From: Marine Group I thaumarchaeote
GTDB taxonomy: Archaea > Thermoproteota > Nitrososphaeria > Nitrososphaerales > Nitrosopumilaceae
Length of the DNA: 64,000 nucleotides
Direction of reading: 5' to 3'
Assembly (NCBI GenBank): GCA_013390905.1
Contig: JACATG010000003.1
Span: 1 to 64,000, forward strand
In this document: piece after piece, positions 3-57,790 of the stretch
Numbering within the stretch: position 1 is the first letter of the stretch
Layout of the letters: each line of letters opens with the position of its first letter
Made by a program: the position numbers and the translations under genes
The notes under the pieces: model-generated
Databases searched by the model: none
Told to the model about the DNA's origin: nothing
Seen by the model: only the letters and a program-made list of their open reading frames with translations

Positions 3-962
3 CTTCCAAAATTCTCTAGTAGGGCATTCTTAGCTCCTATGGCAGGAGTAAGTGATCCTGCACTTCGATTACAATGTAAACAAAAGGGAGCTGGGCTTGT
101 TGTTACTGAATTTACTAACATTCATAGTATTATTGCAAAAGAAAAACAACTTAAAAAAAATACTAAAACAATACAAGAATTTATTGAATATTCAGAGCAA
201 GAACGTCCTATTTCAGTTCAGTTATTTGGTTCTGATCTTCTTGCATTAGAACAAGCTGCGAAGATTGTAGAACCTTATTTTGATATTATTGATTATAACA
301 TGGGATGTCCTGCACCTCATATTACTCAACAAATGGCAGGTGGTGCGCTTCTACAAGAAATAAATCTAACTCAACAAATTTTCAGTACCCTTGTTAATGC
401 TGTAAAAAAACCTGTAACACTAAAAATTCGTTCTGGAGTGACAAATGCTAGTAAATTTCTATTTAGAGAAATTGCTGAAATTGCAGAAGATGAAGGAATT
501 CAGATGATCACTCTGCATCCCAGAACTGTTAGTCAAGGTTATTCTGGAAATTCAGATTGGAAGATGATTAAAGAACTTAAAGAAATATCAAACATTCCAA
601 TTGTTGGAAATGGGGATATTGTAACCCCAGAAGATGCTAAAACTATGATTGATGAGACTGGTTGTGATTATGTAATGATTGGTCGTGGTGCAATGGGAAA
701 TCCATTCTTGTTTGAACAAATAAACGATTATCTCAAAACTAACTCTTACAATGAATACTCTTTCAAAGATCGGTTGGATTCATTTTTTGATTATTTGCAT
801 CTTACAAATCAATACAAAATCAAATTTGCTAATATTAAGAGTCAAGCAATAAGATTTACAAAAGGTATGGAAGGAGGTTCTAAACTACGTTCAAAAATTA
901 CTTTTTCAAAAAATATTGAAGAACTTGAGAAAATTATGAATAATGCATATACATCGCCCTAG
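3..962 (+). CDS. tRNA-dihydrouridine synthase, 5' end cut off
   Basis: Flavin-dependent enzyme that reduces uridine to dihydrouridine in the D-loop of tRNA. The frame is open from the first bases and reads LPKFSSRAFLAPMAGVSD, which is the usual Dus opening (LAPMAGVTD). The first visible ATG at 39 is therefore internal, and the true start lies before the window. Further Dus hallmarks follow: the NMGCPAP loop with its catalytic Cys (bases 297-317), KIRSG, and the FMN-phosphate segments VGNGDI and VMIGRGAMGNP. The C-terminal helical domain is present, so only a few N-terminal residues are missing. Family assignment is firm; which uridine is modified cannot be told. Confidence 0.93.
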   Translation, partial: LPKFSSRAFLAPMAGVSDPALRLQCKQKGAGLVVTEFTNIHSIIAKEKQLKKNTKTIQEFIEYSEQERPISVQLFGSDLLALEQAAKIVEPYFDIIDYNMGCPAPHITQQMAGGALLQEINLTQQIFSTLVNAVKKPVTLKIRSGVTNASKFLFREIAEIAEDEGIQMITLHPRTVSQGYSGNSDWKMIKELKEISNIPIVGNGDIVTPEDAKTMIDETGCDYVMIGRGAMGNPFLFEQINDYLKTNSYNEYSFKDRLDSFFDYLHLTNQYKIKFANIKSQAIRFTKGMEGGSKLRSKITFSKNIEELEKIMNNAYTSP

Positions 963-1102
963 AAATTTATTAAATTACTGCATATTACTTTACATTTGTT
1001 TATGATTTAACTAAAATTGATATTGAATTTTTAAGCAAACTAGACTATTCTTATATATTTCAAGATGGCATTTAATGTATGAAAATAGGAATTGAATCGT
1101 AA

Positions 1103-1342
1103 TTGGCAACAGCTTATGTTCTCATAAACTGTGAGCTAGGTTCTGAAGAATCAGTAATATTGGAACTTAAATCAATAGAAGGAGTTGTTGAAGTACATGG
1201 CACATTTGGTGCATATGATATCTTGGCTAAAGTAAAATCAGATCAAGTAGAAGCACTACGTGAAACTATTACTTGGAAGATAAGAAAAATTCCAAAAATC
1301 AGATCAACTCTGACATTAATGGGGATTGAAGGACAAGAATAA
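1103..1342 (+). CDS. stand-alone Lrp/AsnC effector-binding (RAM) domain protein, copy 1
   Basis: This 79-residue protein is only the alpha/beta ligand-binding (RAM) half of an Lrp/AsnC regulator, with no helix-turn-helix. It opens ATAYVLINCELGSEE and contains the VHGTFGAYDILAKV core that lines the effector site in this family. Such proteins usually form dimers or octamers and sense amino acids, sometimes in trans with DNA-binding partners. The start is TTG at 1103, chosen because the paralogue at 32001 starts with ATG at the same residue. The two copies are about 80% identical. Ligand and partner are unknown. Confidence 0.85.
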   Translation: MATAYVLINCELGSEESVILELKSIEGVVEVHGTFGAYDILAKVKSDQVEALRETITWKIRKIPKIRSTLTLMGIEGQE

Positions 1343-1402
1343 TTCTTCAAAATCCTTTGCTTTTATACTTAAATTGTAATAGAAATATCCCTTCAAAAAT
1401 AC

Positions 1403-1450
1403 GTCTCCCAAAGGGACATCACACTGAGAGAACAGAGTTATTCTCTCAGT
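1403..1450. other. two adjacent inverted repeats in the gap after the Lrp-type gene
   Basis: The 208-base gap 1343-1550 has two neighbouring hairpins. One is TCCC/GGGA around AAA (1406-1416). The other is a perfect 10-bp inverted repeat, ACTGAGAGAA at 1423-1432 and TTCTCTCAGT at 1441-1450, with an 8-base loop. No T-run follows, so a simple terminator is not the obvious reading. It could be a small RNA, an mRNA 3' end structure or a protein-binding site. Nothing else is visible in this gap. Confidence 0.4.
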
Positions 1451-1550
1451 AGAATTATCTAAATCAAATGATTATGTAGTTTTATTCAAATTTTATTATA
1501 CAATTAATTGGTTATTGTATTATCCTCTGACTTTTTTAGTATAGAAAAAA

Positions 1551-1736
1551 ATGAAAATTATGAAAAGTGATGAAAAAAGATCTCATAGACTAAACTATCT
1601 TTTAAAGTACTATTTGATTAATCCTAAAGAAAATGATCTCTATCAAAGAGCCAAACAAATGGGAGTATCTGATTATACTGCGAAGGATTACATCAGGACA
1701 GTCATTATACAAGCCAAAAAAATCTATTCAAAATAG
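1551..1736 (+). CDS. small basic hypothetical protein (61 aa)
   Basis: Not recognised as a named family. The product is short and Lys/Arg-rich, with a region (RAKQMGVSDYTAKDYIRTVIIQAKK) that looks like the recognition half of a small helix-turn-helix, so DNA binding is possible but unproven. Two in-frame ATGs lie at 1551 and 1560; either could be used. It stands alone between the Lrp-type gene and the membrane protein that follows. Codon use resembles the neighbours. Confidence 0.6.
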   Translation: MKIMKSDEKRSHRLNYLLKYYLINPKENDLYQRAKQMGVSDYTAKDYIRTVIIQAKKIYSK

Positions 1737-52053: not shown

Positions 52054-53805
52054 TTAAAATAAACTATTTGTTAGTTTTTTCAATACCAGAATCTCTTCTT
52101 CTTCATGTCTAATTTTCTTATCAATTACACGAAGCATTGTAGTATTCCATACATGTTGAGAGAAGAAATTATGTTTTGTATTAGCCAACTCAATTTCATC
52201 ATCAACTACAGTATCTTCAAGAAATTTAGTTACAATTACATCTGTTAACTTTAGAATTCTCGAATTAAGTTTGAAACTACGAAAAATTGGCTCTAATTTT
52301 CTTACATCTTCCTTGAAATCTCCACTTGATTCAAGAATTTTCTTGTGGAGTATCCTAAAGTAAACTGCTACAAAAAATAACGTTGCGTATCTTTTTGTTT
52401 TGTGACCTCCTTGTTTTCCATACATTAATGATTTTTTAGCAAATTCTTTGACAAGATACGGGTATAACAAAATTCTGTAATCATCTTTTAGATTATCATT
52501 AAAGATATCATCATATTTACTTCCTCTAGGAAGAAATTGTGCTGGTGAGCTATATGCTTCAGTTGGTCTTTGTTCAATTCCTGCAACTAGCGACTGAATT
52601 GCATCTTTAGCAACAATGACTTTCTTATGGTTATCTGGAAGATAGTTGTTGTATATTGCATCTCCTTCATATTCGCACTGTTTTGATTTTGTTTTTGTAT
52701 CAAAAGAACCTGCTTGAATTTCATAAAAATAGCCACAATTTTTTAATTGTGATTTAATTGATTTATGAAAATCCATCAATGAAACCAGATCTTTTCCTCT
52801 CACTGAATTTTGAGAATTTCTATACTTTGTAATGTTATTTTGTTCTTCTTCATCATCTGCTTTGATTATTGTAACTGTCATGGAGCCTTCCATGTTTTTT
52901 ACTCTCTTTGAATGATCAAGAATAGAGTTTGATGTTTGTGCACCATTAACAATTTGTGGAGCATGAAGCTCAATCAAATTCTCTCCTAATTCTACAAAGT
53001 CACTTACCACAATAGTAATTCCGTTATTATAATAGAAAAATTTACCTGGATTACTTTGTAATGTTTCACGTAATCCTTTGTTAACTGTAGTTTTGAATTG
53101 CAGCCATTGCCTAATGTTTGAGTCAAAGACATAATCTTTATTCTTATTTACAAATTCAGTAAGTTCCCGTAATTTCAAAATTCCTAGTATGGTATTCTCA
53201 TGTTTGAGCATTCTTTCTAGTTTAATTGAAGATTTTTTGCCTGCTGCTGGTTTTTTAATTCTGTCCCATAATTTTTGAATTATTTTCTCCCCATCTATGA
53301 TCTCAACAAATTCATCCTCATATTCTACTTTCTGATCTGTAACATAACAACATTTTATCTTAAGATTTTTCTCTTTAATTTTTGTTACAAGCTGAGCTAG
53401 TTCAGGCCTCATTTTTGTAACATCTTTTGCAAGTAATCGTTTCACATCTTCTTTAAATTTAGCAATTGCTTCTAGTGAATGTGATGTACCATATTTTGAT
53501 TGGAATAATCTGATTGTATTATCTGAAAAATCCACTGGAAGATAGGCATCAATTCCAAGATCGTTTGCCCCATCAACAATCGCGTCTGCTGCATCATCTT
53601 CGGTAGCCTCAAAAACTCTTGTTAACACCCATTGAAGAAAATTATTTCCTTTTTCGACGTCACTTTTAGCATTTTCAGCATATTCTTGGATACTTACTCG
53701 AACATTTTCTGCAAATCCTTCTAGAGGTTGACTAGAATTTTTTTGTACTAGTAATGTTTGTAAACCTGGTATGTATTCAAATAATCCATTTCCATTTTGA
53801 GACAA
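52054..53805 (-). CDS. AIPR-family protein (abortive-infection phage-resistance type)
   Basis: 583 residues with the AIPR pattern: NDLGIDAYLPVDFSDNTIRLFQSKYG (Asp86 and Gln102-Ser-Lys104 as a PD-(D/E)xK nuclease-type core), KFFYYNNGITIVVSDF and APQIVNGAQTSNSILDH. AIPR proteins were linked to phage abortive infection in bacteria and are widespread in defence islands. Here it stands alone; no methylase, helicase or toxin partner is adjacent, and its codon use is close to its neighbours. The 162-base gap 51892-52053 has only a peptide-like frame without a start codon. Confidence 0.88.
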   Translation of the reverse strand: MSQNGNGLFEYIPGLQTLLVQKNSSQPLEGFAENVRVSIQEYAENAKSDVEKGNNFLQWVLTRVFEATEDDAADAIVDGANDLGIDAYLPVDFSDNTIRLFQSKYGTSHSLEAIAKFKEDVKRLLAKDVTKMRPELAQLVTKIKEKNLKIKCCYVTDQKVEYEDEFVEIIDGEKIIQKLWDRIKKPAAGKKSSIKLERMLKHENTILGILKLRELTEFVNKNKDYVFDSNIRQWLQFKTTVNKGLRETLQSNPGKFFYYNNGITIVVSDFVELGENLIELHAPQIVNGAQTSNSILDHSKRVKNMEGSMTVTIIKADDEEEQNNITKYRNSQNSVRGKDLVSLMDFHKSIKSQLKNCGYFYEIQAGSFDTKTKSKQCEYEGDAIYNNYLPDNHKKVIVAKDAIQSLVAGIEQRPTEAYSSPAQFLPRGSKYDDIFNDNLKDDYRILLYPYLVKEFAKKSLMYGKQGGHKTKRYATLFFVAVYFRILHKKILESSGDFKEDVRKLEPIFRSFKLNSRILKLTDVIVTKFLEDTVVDDEIELANTKHNFFSQHVWNTTMLRVIDKKIRHEEEEILVLKKLTNSLF

Positions 53806-54623: not shown

Positions 54624-54719
54624 AAATTCTATTTTAGTTTTTTCCGAAAAAAGATAATGAATGAAAAAATATCACTAAGGAATCGATTTATACAGACTAT
54701 TTTAAGAACTGATAAAGAA

Positions 54720-55475
54720 ATGACATGGTATTTTGATTCTCATATACACTTGTCCGATCCTACATATTCTTCTGATATGAAATTTATCTTAAAGGAAATG
54801 GATTATCTGAAAATTAAAGCATGTTGTGTCTCAATGGATAATAAAAATTCTTTACAAACTTTAAAACTAGCAAAAAAAAGTAATTTAGTTTTACCCTTCA
54901 TTGGAATTCATCCCGAATGTGTAAATGACAAACTTGAACAAATGACAAATATGATCGAAGAAAACTACCAAAATCTTTCTGGAATAGGAGAAATAGGACT
55001 AGATCCAACTTTTGTCAATAGTGATGAAGATTCTAAAAGACAAATCCATGTTTTTGAAACATTATTATCACTTGCAGAAAAATTTAACAAACCAGTTTCT
55101 ATTCATTCAAGAAAAAGTATTGATAATGTTTTTCAAATAATGACTTCCTTTAACACTAAACATGCTTTGCTTCATTGGTTTGATGGTAGTAAAAAACAAC
55201 TTCAAAAAGCCATGGATATGGGATTTTTTGTGTCATATGGACCTGTAATGGTTTATGCAAATGACAAGCAGACTTTACTGTCTAAAACAGATGAATCAAA
55301 AATTCTTGTTGAAACTGACGGTCCTGTGAGATTTTCAAAGTGTTTTGAAATGAAATCTGGACAAATTAGCTTTATTCCTAGTGTAATTTTCTGTGCTTCA
55401 AAAATTCTAGGAAAAACATTTGATGAAATGACATCTCTACTAGAAAACAATTCAAAATCATTCCTTGGAATATAG
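54720..55475 (+). CDS. TatD-family metal-dependent hydrolase
   Basis: TIM-barrel nuclease/hydrolase of the TatD group. Seen: YFDSHIHLSD (metal His pair), PFIGIHPECV, GEIGLDPTF, VSIHSRKS and ILVETDGPV. The ATG at 54720 is chosen because TatD proteins start close to the DSHxHL motif; the ATG at 54657 would add 21 basic residues. 251 residues then, which is the normal family length. The 3' end carries a TATA box for the next gene. Confidence 0.9.
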   Translation: MTWYFDSHIHLSDPTYSSDMKFILKEMDYLKIKACCVSMDNKNSLQTLKLAKKSNLVLPFIGIHPECVNDKLEQMTNMIEENYQNLSGIGEIGLDPTFVNSDEDSKRQIHVFETLLSLAEKFNKPVSIHSRKSIDNVFQIMTSFNTKHALLHWFDGSKKQLQKAMDMGFFVSYGPVMVYANDKQTLLSKTDESKILVETDGPVRFSKCFEMKSGQISFIPSVIFCASKILGKTFDEMTSLLENNSKSFLGI

Positions 55476-55476
55476 G

Positions 55477-55485
55477 TATAAAATA
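55477..55485 (+). promoter_or_regulatory. TATA box for eS17
   Basis: TATAAAATA is centred about 26 bases before GTG 55507. It lies just after the TatD stop codon (55475) and supports starting eS17 at that GTG rather than at TTG 55465, which lies upstream of the box. Confidence 0.6.
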
Positions 55486-55506
55486 CCCACGTTCATCAGA
55501 CGAGAA

Positions 55507-55836
55507 GTGGATAGAATAAAACGTATTTCCTATGAGGTGCTAGACAAATACAAATCTAGATTTGGCGAAGATTTTGCTGATAATAAAAAAATCTTAGATG
55601 AAGTTTCTATCGTACGTTCTAAAAGCCTAAAAAACAAAATAACAGGATATATCACTAGATATATCAAAAAAGAGATTCGCGAAGAAAAATCTAAAAAAGA
55701 ACAAATTATATCTACACAATCTGAGGAATCAGTAGAGAAAGAAGTTCAATCAGAGACTACTGAATCAACCACTACTGAAAAAACTATAACTGAAACCGTT
55801 GCAGAAACAGTCCCTATAGAAGAGAAAACTGACTAA
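55507..55836 (+). CDS. rps17e: 30S ribosomal protein eS17 with acidic tail
   Basis: Residues 1-60 are eS17: VDRIKRISYEVLDKYKSRFGEDFADNKKILDEVSIVRSKSLKNKITGYITRYIKKE, with the NKK and RSK..KNKI.GYIT motifs. A tail of about 45 residues rich in Glu, Thr and Ser follows and is not part of ordinary eS17. The GTG at 55507 gives the normal N-terminus; a longer frame from TTG 55465 would overlap TatD by 11 bases and add 14 residues. A TATA box fits the GTG. 109 residues. Confidence 0.9.
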   Translation: MDRIKRISYEVLDKYKSRFGEDFADNKKILDEVSIVRSKSLKNKITGYITRYIKKEIREEKSKKEQIISTQSEESVEKEVQSETTESTTTEKTITETVAETVPIEEKTD

Positions 55837-55877: not shown

Positions 55878-56651
55878 ATGATTACTGTAAAACTTGTTGG
55901 TGGCGCAAAAAAATCTTTCTTAACAGAGCAATTACATATTGATAAATCTAATATCTCCATCCAAGAACTGCTTGATTTGTTGTTAGAATTAAAACCTGCT
56001 GATACTCCTGATCTAGATACTGAAAATATTTTGATTGCAATAAATGGAACTGATTCTTCTGCAATGGAAGGAAGATCTACTATGATAAAAAATAATGATC
56101 TTGTGAGCATTATACCTGTAATTCATGGTGGCTCTTCCAAAAAACTAACTTTTCAAGTCTTAAAAAAACAAATTCAAATAATTGAGATTATAGGTCAAAA
56201 AACAATTGATCTCAAGTTCCTTGATAATTTAAGAAAGAGATATCCAAAAATTCAACTTCAGGCTATATCGAGTAATTTTATTTTGAACAATTATCACTTG
56301 AAGAAAATTTTATCATTATCTCTAGAATCTAAAAAAAATGATATTTTACTTTCAAATAAACTTGAAACTGATATTTTAATACGTTTTGCATTGACAAAAC
56401 AAATTTCTGATGCAATAATAAATGCTGGAATTAAACCAAAAACTAATTTTATTTTGATTGCGATTGGAAATAAAAAAATGCTGAATTCATTATATGTGGA
56501 ATTATTACCATTATTAGTAAATCTATTTTCAAAAAATAATGATTTGTTTCTCAAAAAATATTTTAAAATTACAAAAAAACAACTTAATTCAGTTTATTCA
56601 AAAAATCCTCTAGAGGATATTTTGATAGAAAAGGCAGCAATTTTACTCTGA
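55878..56651 (+). CDS. beta-grasp (ubiquitin-like) domain fused to a Cgi121-type KEOPS subunit
   Basis: Residues 1-86 form a MoaD/ThiS-like ubiquitin fold (MITVKLVGGAKKSFL, SIQELLDLLLEL, ILIAINGTDSSAMEG, LVSIIPVIHGG), with Gly84-Gly85 where such proteins normally end. Residues about 110-257 match Cgi121: LQAISSNFILNNYHLKKILSLSLES, LETDILIRFALTKQISDAIINAGIKP, FILIAIGNKK. Cgi121 is the KEOPS subunit that binds the tRNA CCA tail in t6A synthesis. The fusion joins a sulphur-carrier/protein-modifier module to it. THUMP and Sua5 genes lie convergently beside it, with an overlap of 9 bases. Confidence 0.75.
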   Translation: MITVKLVGGAKKSFLTEQLHIDKSNISIQELLDLLLELKPADTPDLDTENILIAINGTDSSAMEGRSTMIKNNDLVSIIPVIHGGSSKKLTFQVLKKQIQIIEIIGQKTIDLKFLDNLRKRYPKIQLQAISSNFILNNYHLKKILSLSLESKKNDILLSNKLETDILIRFALTKQISDAIINAGIKPKTNFILIAIGNKKMLNSLYVELLPLLVNLFSKNNDLFLKKYFKITKKQLNSVYSKNPLEDILIEKAAILL

Positions 56652-57164
56652 GATACTACGTTTAGTCTTTTCAACGCTTAGCACATCTACTTTTTTTAAT
56701 ATAGAAATACCTGTTTTATCACCTAGGATTTCGATTAGGATAATTTTATCTGGAAATTCAAGTGATACTTTATTTTTTATTTTACTTGCTATTTTTGAAA
56801 TAATTTCTTGACTAGATAAATCTGAATTTCTTTTTTCTATTGATATTCTGTATGTTTCTTCATTAGAAATTTGTCCGGATATATCTATAACTGCTTTTTC
56901 TATTTCTTCAATTTTTGTTTTAATAACTTTTTGAATTGGTATGATTCTTAGACAATATCTAATACTCCAAGGTTCATCAAGAAGCATTTCTTTAATTTTT
57001 CTTACAATTTCAATCGGCTCGAGCTTTGTTTCAGCAGTCAAAATTCCTGACATATTTGTGATTGAAACTTTTGCATCAGAATCTCCCAATTCTTCTAGAA
57101 TATCACTTAGTTCTTTCTCAGTTTCAGGTTCAAGATGCCTAGCACAAGTAATAATCAAATTCAT
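56643..57164 (-). CDS. THUMP-domain RNA-binding protein
   Basis: 173 residues with the N-terminal ferredoxin-like part (MNLIITCARHLEPETEKELSDILEELGD) and the THUMP core (ETYRISIEKRNSDLSSQEIISKIASKIKNKVSLEFPDKIILIEILGDKTGISIL). Similar to archaeal TAN1-like proteins, which help acetylate C12 of tRNA-Leu/Ser together with Nat10-type enzymes; other THUMP roles are in thiolation. No catalytic domain is attached. Its ATG overlaps the Sua5 stop by 4 bases, so the two form one unit. Confidence 0.85.
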   Translation of the reverse strand: MNLIITCARHLEPETEKELSDILEELGDSDAKVSITNMSGILTAETKLEPIEIVRKIKEMLLDEPWSIRYCLRIIPIQKVIKTKIEEIEKAVIDISGQISNEETYRISIEKRNSDLSSQEIISKIASKIKNKVSLEFPDKIILIEILGDKTGISILKKVDVLSVEKTKRSISE

Positions 57165-57790
57165 AATTCTAAAATCTCCTCGTGACTTAATGAGCCTTCT
57201 CGAATAATTCTGATCTCCTCATTTTCTATCTCAATTATAGTTGATTCTGACTTGCTAGTAATTATTCCCCCATCAACAAAAACATCGTATTTTCTAAAAT
57301 TGTTAAAACATTCATCAGGATTTGTAAATGATGAATGTCCAGAAATATTGGCACTAGTACCTACTAGAAAATTACATTTCTTCAATAATTTTAATGTACA
57401 TTTATGATTAGGAACTCTTATGGCAATTTTGTCAGTTATATTTAATGATTCTTTTAGATTTTCATCAGTTAATTTTAGAATTATTGTTAGTGGTCCTGGC
57501 CAAAATCTTTCTACAATTTTTTTAGTAAATTCGTCAAAAAAAGCAATCCTTTCAGCAATATCTTTTGAATACACTAAAACTGGAAATGGTTTTGAAATTT
57601 TTCTTGATTTAATCTCATAAATTTTTCTTACTGAATCTTTATTGTATGGATCACATCCTATTCCATATACTGTATCTGTTGGAAAAACGACAATTCCTCC
57701 TTGATTAATAATTTTAGATGCTTTTTCAATTCCTTCTTTATTACAAGTTACTTTCAACATCCGCTCTATTCTTTTTTGTTTAATTACCAT
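57161..57790 (-). CDS. threonylcarbamoyl-AMP synthase (Sua5/YrdC family)
   Basis: Makes threonylcarbamoyl-AMP, the substrate that KEOPS uses for t6A37 of tRNA. Seen: KASKIINQGGIVVFPTDTVYGIGCDPYNKDSVRKIYEIKSRKISKPFPVLV, FWPGPLTIILK, IAIRVPNH and GTSANISGHSS. Length (209) fits YrdC-type or short Sua5. The start at 57790 (MVIKQKR) or at Met11 cannot be told apart. It pairs with the THUMP gene downstream and sits opposite the beta-grasp/Cgi121 gene, so a tRNA-modification cluster is clear. Confidence 0.92.
   Translation of the reverse strand: MVIKQKRIERMLKVTCNKEGIEKASKIINQGGIVVFPTDTVYGIGCDPYNKDSVRKIYEIKSRKISKPFPVLVYSKDIAERIAFFDEFTKKIVERFWPGPLTIILKLTDENLKESLNITDKIAIRVPNHKCTLKLLKKCNFLVGTSANISGHSSFTNPDECFNNFRKYDVFVDGGIITSKSESTIIEIENEEIRIIREGSLSHEEILEL

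Follow-up and report, generated by a model that had tools for sequence, protein, structure and literature searches.

Invariant His-Gly-Gly joint in a ubiquitin-like-Cgi121 fusion gene of Nitrosopumilaceae and its probable role as a cleavage site

Fusions of ubiquitin to ribosomal proteins in eukaryotes carry the modifier with a C-terminal extension after Gly-Gly, from which it is released by a protease. A fusion of a ubiquitin-like (Ubl) domain to the KEOPS subunit Cgi121 was described by Makarova and Koonin in 2010 in all thaumarchaea then sequenced, apparently co-transcribed with ribosomal protein S17, and SAMPylation or tRNA modification was proposed as the link (PMC2948915). The MoaD-MoaE fusion MoaX of M. 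tuberculosis is cut between Gly82 and Ser83, and this cleavage is needed (PMC4326299). In Caldiarchaeum subterraneum, CsJAMM cleaves SAMP precursors and CsRpn11 cuts a ubiquitin precursor after Gly-Gly (PMC6043591). Urm1 of Sulfolobus/Saccharolobus is free-standing and ends at His-Gly-Gly (HGG), with His81 before the two glycines (PMC12625751; 4wwm), and in Sulfolobales it also has S17 as a neighbour (PMC2948915). Thaumarchaea further encode a MoaD-MoeB (Ubl-E1) fusion, which is mentioned in the text of a 2024 survey of archaeal fusions where Ubl-Cgi121 is not (PMC11237513).

The window, which is the whole stretch of DNA that was analysed (64,000 nucleotides), contains a gene that appears to be a member of the Makarova-Koonin family: the Ubl domain is N-terminal, Cgi121 is C-terminal, S17e lies upstream and the genome is thaumarchaeal. 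The original prediction knew of no description of this fusion; the architecture has in fact been known since 2010. A full-text search of the open literature, with few subscription journals, found no later study or experimental follow-up of the fusion. The 2010 description contains no data on HGG invariance, disorder or re-splits; these are added here, together with the restriction of the fusion to one family and its probable origin by stop loss.

Domains and gene neighbourhood of the fusion

The following features were assigned in and around the fusion gene.

54657..55475, plus strand: TatD-type hydrolase, upstream (Pfam TatD_DNase 5.9e-48; synteny)
55465..55836, plus strand: ribosomal protein S17e, upstream, start codon uncertain (Pfam Ribosomal_S17e 3.5e-20; adjoins the Ubl gene in most outgroup loci)
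55878..56651, plus strand: Ubl-Cgi121 fusion gene, an ORF of 257 aa plus stop with ATG start (Pfam/NCBIfam; fusion conserved in relatives)
55878..56132, plus strand: Urm1/SAMP/MoaD-type beta-grasp domain, residues 1-85 (Pfam ThiS, Urm1; Foldseek 2k9x, 6yuc, 4wwm)
56124..56132, plus strand: His83-Gly84-Gly85, putative processing site after Gly85 (sequence CAT GGT GGC; invariance; pLDDT < 50)
56133..56174, plus strand: variable junction after Gly-Gly, residues 86-99 (column entropies; relatives with a stop or re-split here)
56139..56648, plus strand: Cgi121 domain (KEOPS), residues 88-257 (Pfam CGI-121, NF011465; Foldseek 4ww7, 8up5, 7kjt)
56643..57164, minus strand: THUMP-domain protein, convergent, overlapping the 3' end of the fusion gene (Pfam THUMP 4.7e-10; synteny)
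57161..57790, minus strand: Sua5/TsaC, threonylcarbamoyl-AMP synthase of the t6A pathway (TIGR00057 2.3e-54; synteny)

The original prediction of a beta-grasp domain joined to a full Cgi121 domain was borne out by Pfam, NCBIfam and Foldseek, with each half also scanned separately. On the full 257-aa protein, Pfam ThiS matched residues 17-85 (E 1.7e-8), CGI-121 matched residues 117-254 (E 5.8e-7) and NCBIfam NF011465 'KEOPS complex subunit Cgi121' scored 166.9 bits (cut-off 40; E 3.6e-49). Residues 1-87 by themselves matched ThiS (5.2e-9) and Urm1 (1.3e-4), and residues 88-257 matched CGI-121 (1.6e-7) and NF011465 (2e-46). As phmmer against PDB sequences was weak (best E 0.008), a fold search was needed. 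The AlphaFold model, with 45 fused homologues as input, showed two confident domains with a mean pLDDT of 91.9; its pTM of 0.67 is in line with two rigid domains that are loosely joined. Foldseek matched the N-terminal domain to Urm1/SAMP-type structures, Urm1 and SAMP1 included (2g1e, 2k9x, 6yuc; E about 4e-4 to 8e-4), and the C-terminal domain to Cgi121 structures from yeast, human, plant and archaea (4ww7, 8up5, 7kjt; E 8e-9 to 2e-7). The N-terminal domain thus has the beta-grasp fold of the Urm1/SAMP/MoaD-ThiS ubiquitin-like proteins, and the C-terminal domain is Cgi121 by both fold and profile. No plasmid matches were found. The suggestion that the beta-grasp part replaces a KEOPS partner gained no support, as the Cgi121 domain is intact and the window's own genome encodes Bud32 at another locus (TIGR03724 at G000:C14, E 4.1e-64; of the KEOPS partners, the search covered Bud32).

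The gene had been said to lie against the tRNA-modification genes for THUMP and Sua5. Both are indeed conserved neighbours, but they are on the opposite strand and outside the operon of the fusion gene, which the S17e gene probably shares. Sua5/TsaC is the t6A enzyme working before KEOPS. The order histone-TatD-S17e-Ubl-Cgi121 / THUMP-Sua5 is largely kept in many other families, and the fact that fused and unfused genomes share it supports the orthology of both halves. The S17e protein itself (window 55465-55836; L001, L003, L018, L167) has a long, acidic tail of low complexity, in which the repeat unit and its copy number vary by species (for example TPETVTEA, ESAEEVTLTNDAP and APADAP repeats). 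Upstream of the S17e operon, at 52057-53805 on the minus strand, the window encodes a protein of the AIPR family (Pfam PF10592, E 4e-59), which has been linked to phage abortive infection.

Conservation and natural re-splitting of the joint

The Gly84-Gly85 pair that had been noticed at the end of the carrier-like domain is present and invariant, yet internal, and a free C-terminal end would need cleavage. All 129 fused sequences, of which 100 are unique, have HGG, as do 12 others. The residue after it varied among the 100 unique sequences (Ser 68, Ala 20, Thr 4, Leu 4, with single cases of Ile, Val, Lys and Gly), and junction columns 86-103 had entropies of about 1.1-3.3 bits, against zero for HGG. 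Residues 83-85 are also the sole stretch of the AlphaFold model with pLDDT < 50, so folding does not explain their invariance. Since the stretch is predicted to be disordered, invariance of the motif suggests recognition or chemistry instead. Self-cleavage through an N-terminal Ser, Thr or Cys nucleophile at residue 86 was rejected on account of the Ala, Leu and other residues found there.

G8, G9, N56, G57, D74 and P80 of the Ubl core are invariant across the divergent family. Pairwise dN/dS was about 0.2-0.3 in both domains, similar purifying selection by an estimate that holds to order of magnitude only, the pairs being few, non-independent and partly near saturation.

In three genomes nested in the family the halves are split again, each just after HGG and with both halves intact. 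G088 reads HGGA-TGA-TTG, G309 reads HGGNK-TGA with the stop overlapping the ATG of Cgi121, and G151 has a frameshift in the linker. G309 has the look of an orderly pair of genes; sequencing errors could account for the G151 frameshift and perhaps for the G088 split. If breaks fell at random along the gene, the chance of three of three lying within residues 86-105 would be about 5e-4.

Distribution and origin of the fusion

A frame error joining two genes, which the original prediction had named as grounds for abandoning it, was ruled out: 32 of 37 same-genus genomes, the window's own counted, have a full-length gene with no internal stop. Among the remaining five genomes, four have a completeness of 62-88%, and in the fifth, whose assembly is fragmented, the gene is truncated. 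The class-wide sample gave full-length matches in the window's own family, nearly all stop-free among the matches listed, and the named relatives with the fusion are Nitrosopumilus, Nitrosarchaeum and other Nitrosopumilaceae. The fusion is thus common to thaumarchaeal genomes, as had been asked, within Nitrosopumilaceae; in other families of the order the two halves are adjacent separate genes. The 2010 description referred to 'all available genomes of Thaumarchaea', which is too broad, since fused genes are limited to one family (Nitrosopumilaceae by named records), bar one outgroup frame that has lost its Gly-Gly. That frame, in G050 (L037, G050:C77, about 880-1611, plus strand), is an open Ubl-Cgi121 frame in which HGG has turned to HC; neither E1 nor JAMM was detected in this 82%-complete genome. 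Within the family, the fusion has been kept through about 20 genera, and the joined state is therefore tolerated or useful.

The separate outgroup genes indicate how the fusion may have arisen. In 17 separate outgroup Ubl ORFs the stop follows HGG after 0-9 residues, with no residue in between in 11 of them. At four loci, L031-L034, the Ubl stop is directly followed by an open Cgi121 frame in the same register, so that the loss of one stop would give a fusion of the Nitrosopumilaceae type. Judged from these sequences, the fusion probably arose through loss of the stop after the Ubl HGG. A second, independent tail after Gly-Gly was seen in another family of the order (L044, G046:C62, 1803-2633, plus strand), where an HGG-ended Ubl is fused to a phosphoribosyltransferase domain and Cgi121 is the next, separate gene.

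Processing of the fusion protein and partner genes

Cleavage after Gly-Gly, one of the possibilities raised by the original prediction, is the reading we favour. We estimate a probability of roughly 0.6 that the gene makes a precursor which is cut after Gly85, releasing Ubl and Cgi121. This reading is based on the HGG motif, invariant yet disordered, and on the natural re-splits at the joint. An ancestral archaeal urm1-like Ubl gene would have been adjacent to cgi121 in the S17e operon, and loss of the stop after the Ubl HGG in the ancestor of Nitrosopumilaceae would have made a single ORF. For the probable cut after Gly85, the most plausible enzyme is a JAMM/MPN+ metalloprotease whose gene lies at another place in the genome. 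One product would be a Ubl with a free Gly-Gly carboxylate, acting as a sulphur carrier or protein modifier, and the other a normal Cgi121, which would join KEOPS for t6A synthesis.

The gene resembles several known systems on this point. MoaX likewise has an N-terminal Ubl with an internal Gly-Gly, followed by Ser and the partner protein, although its partner is the molybdopterin synthase subunit MoaE and not a KEOPS subunit (PMC4326299). The CsUb and CsSAMP precursors of Caldiarchaeum are modifiers with an extension past Gly-Gly that are freed by JAMM-type proteases (PMC6043591), whereas the tail here is a complete, unrelated functional protein and its cleavage is our proposal. Urm1 of Sulfolobus/Saccharolobus shares the Urm1-type fold and the HGG end, without the extension (PMC12625751). 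The MoaD-MoeB fusion (PMC11237513; G000:C6, L131) also has an N-terminal Ubl with an intact internal Gly-Gly; it differs in that the Ubl is joined to its own E1, and it was undetected in part of the family. Cleavage after Gly-Gly, if it occurs, would make the Ubl-Cgi121 protein an archaeal equivalent of ubiquitin that is produced in fusion with translation proteins. It would also tie the supply of the modifier to the t6A machinery of the fusion hosts, marine ammonia-oxidising archaea that are very abundant.

We consider it rather unlikely that the protein remains uncut, as a two-domain KEOPS subunit whose Ubl regulates or scaffolds KEOPS. In that case HGG would serve as a flexible hinge, and the Ubl might bind, for example, the ribosome, the THUMP protein or Sua5. 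The family-wide conservation of the fusion, the similar purifying selection on its two domains and the retention of HGG in genomes lacking E1 would all fit such a subunit. However, a hinge does not need an invariant His-Gly-Gly, and the adjacent linker residues vary freely; the HGG end was already conserved in the separate outgroup Ubls, the gene has re-split naturally at the joint, and the similar MoaX fusion requires cleavage.

A neutral fusion, in which a stop loss was fixed by drift and the Ubl, its carrier role lost, survives as a folding tag of Cgi121, is very unlikely. Simple stop loss is its probable origin, some genomes have no E1, and Gly-Gly is gone from the G050 frame; against this, neither HGG nor the Ubl core varies across the divergent family, dN/dS is low and no decay of HGG was seen in the 129 sequences. 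Least probable of all is an uncut fusion that couples two tRNA modifications: Cgi121, which binds the tRNA CCA end (PMC7718258), would hold the 3' end, and an NcsA/TtuA-type enzyme would receive sulphur from the Ubl for 2-thiolation. The link of t6A to thiolation raised by the original prediction is possible, as a tRNA-modification link was suggested in 2010 (PMC2948915) and such enzymes (TIGR00269) were found in 36 of 40 family genomes checked, but a thiocarboxylate requires a free C-terminal glycine and is impossible mid-chain, TIGR00269 had no match in the window's own genome (an assembly gap or a real loss), E1 was undetected in many relatives, and nothing in this analysis requires joined domains.

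Family searches, on which the gene inventories of the genomes rest, bear further on the cleaved precursor. The genus yielded no free-standing Ubl gene. Apart from Ubl pieces in fragmented assemblies (G005, G016), where the frames are short or broken, all matches belonged to the Cgi121 fusion or to a Ubl-E1 fusion of about 440-517 aa. The Ubl matches listed family-wide agree with this picture, with few exceptions. Something must therefore free the internal Gly-Gly motifs, unless they are idle. A third ThiS-type domain, in a 226-aa frame, was seen in one family member (G178:C43:159299-159529).

At least one JAMM (Prok-JAB) gene was present in each of the 40 family genomes checked. Of the two JAMM proteins of the window's own species, the one encoded at G000:C15 retains the metal-binding motif HxHP...PSxxD intact and is 36% identical to a JAMM beside E1 in outgroup G047. 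None of the JAMM genes neighbours the Ubl-Cgi121 fusion gene, and JAMM proteases have other substrates too.

E1 is encoded in the window's own genome as a Ubl-E1 fusion; among the 136 family genomes that are at least 90% complete, E1 (ThiF) went undetected in 30. The PLP-enzyme gene that flanks E1 in the window's genome is also missing from most of 19 E1-less genomes, which makes an assembly gap unlikely for them; in G161, G202 and G253 this gene is whole or partial, and E1 may just lie beyond the contig end. The losses are dispersed over the tree, with at least 6 changes forced, and several of the losses are recent. HGG was intact in the 16 E1-less loci read, with Ubl dN/dS near 0.3. The idea that HGG is kept solely for E1 activation is weakened by these genomes, though the losses look recent; as far as the sequences go, they leave room for an E1-independent role. 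Tentatively, and at less than even odds, we propose that nearly all Ubl modifiers of the family are made as the front of Cgi121 or of E1 and freed by JAMM, that modifier supply therefore follows the expression of KEOPS and the ribosome operon one-to-one, and that the role of the HGG-ended Ubl persists where no E1 is recognisable.

The Ubl-E1 fusion of the window's genome (L131, G000:C6, 1941-4258, minus strand) has an internal VAGG followed by SEEL and adjoins the gene for the PLP-dependent enzyme; the pair is jointly missing in many relatives. At outgroup locus L134, JAMM and a cysteine-synthase-like gene are neighbours of a Ubl-E1-rhodanese frame, an arrangement which we take to resemble the CysO-CysM-Mec system.
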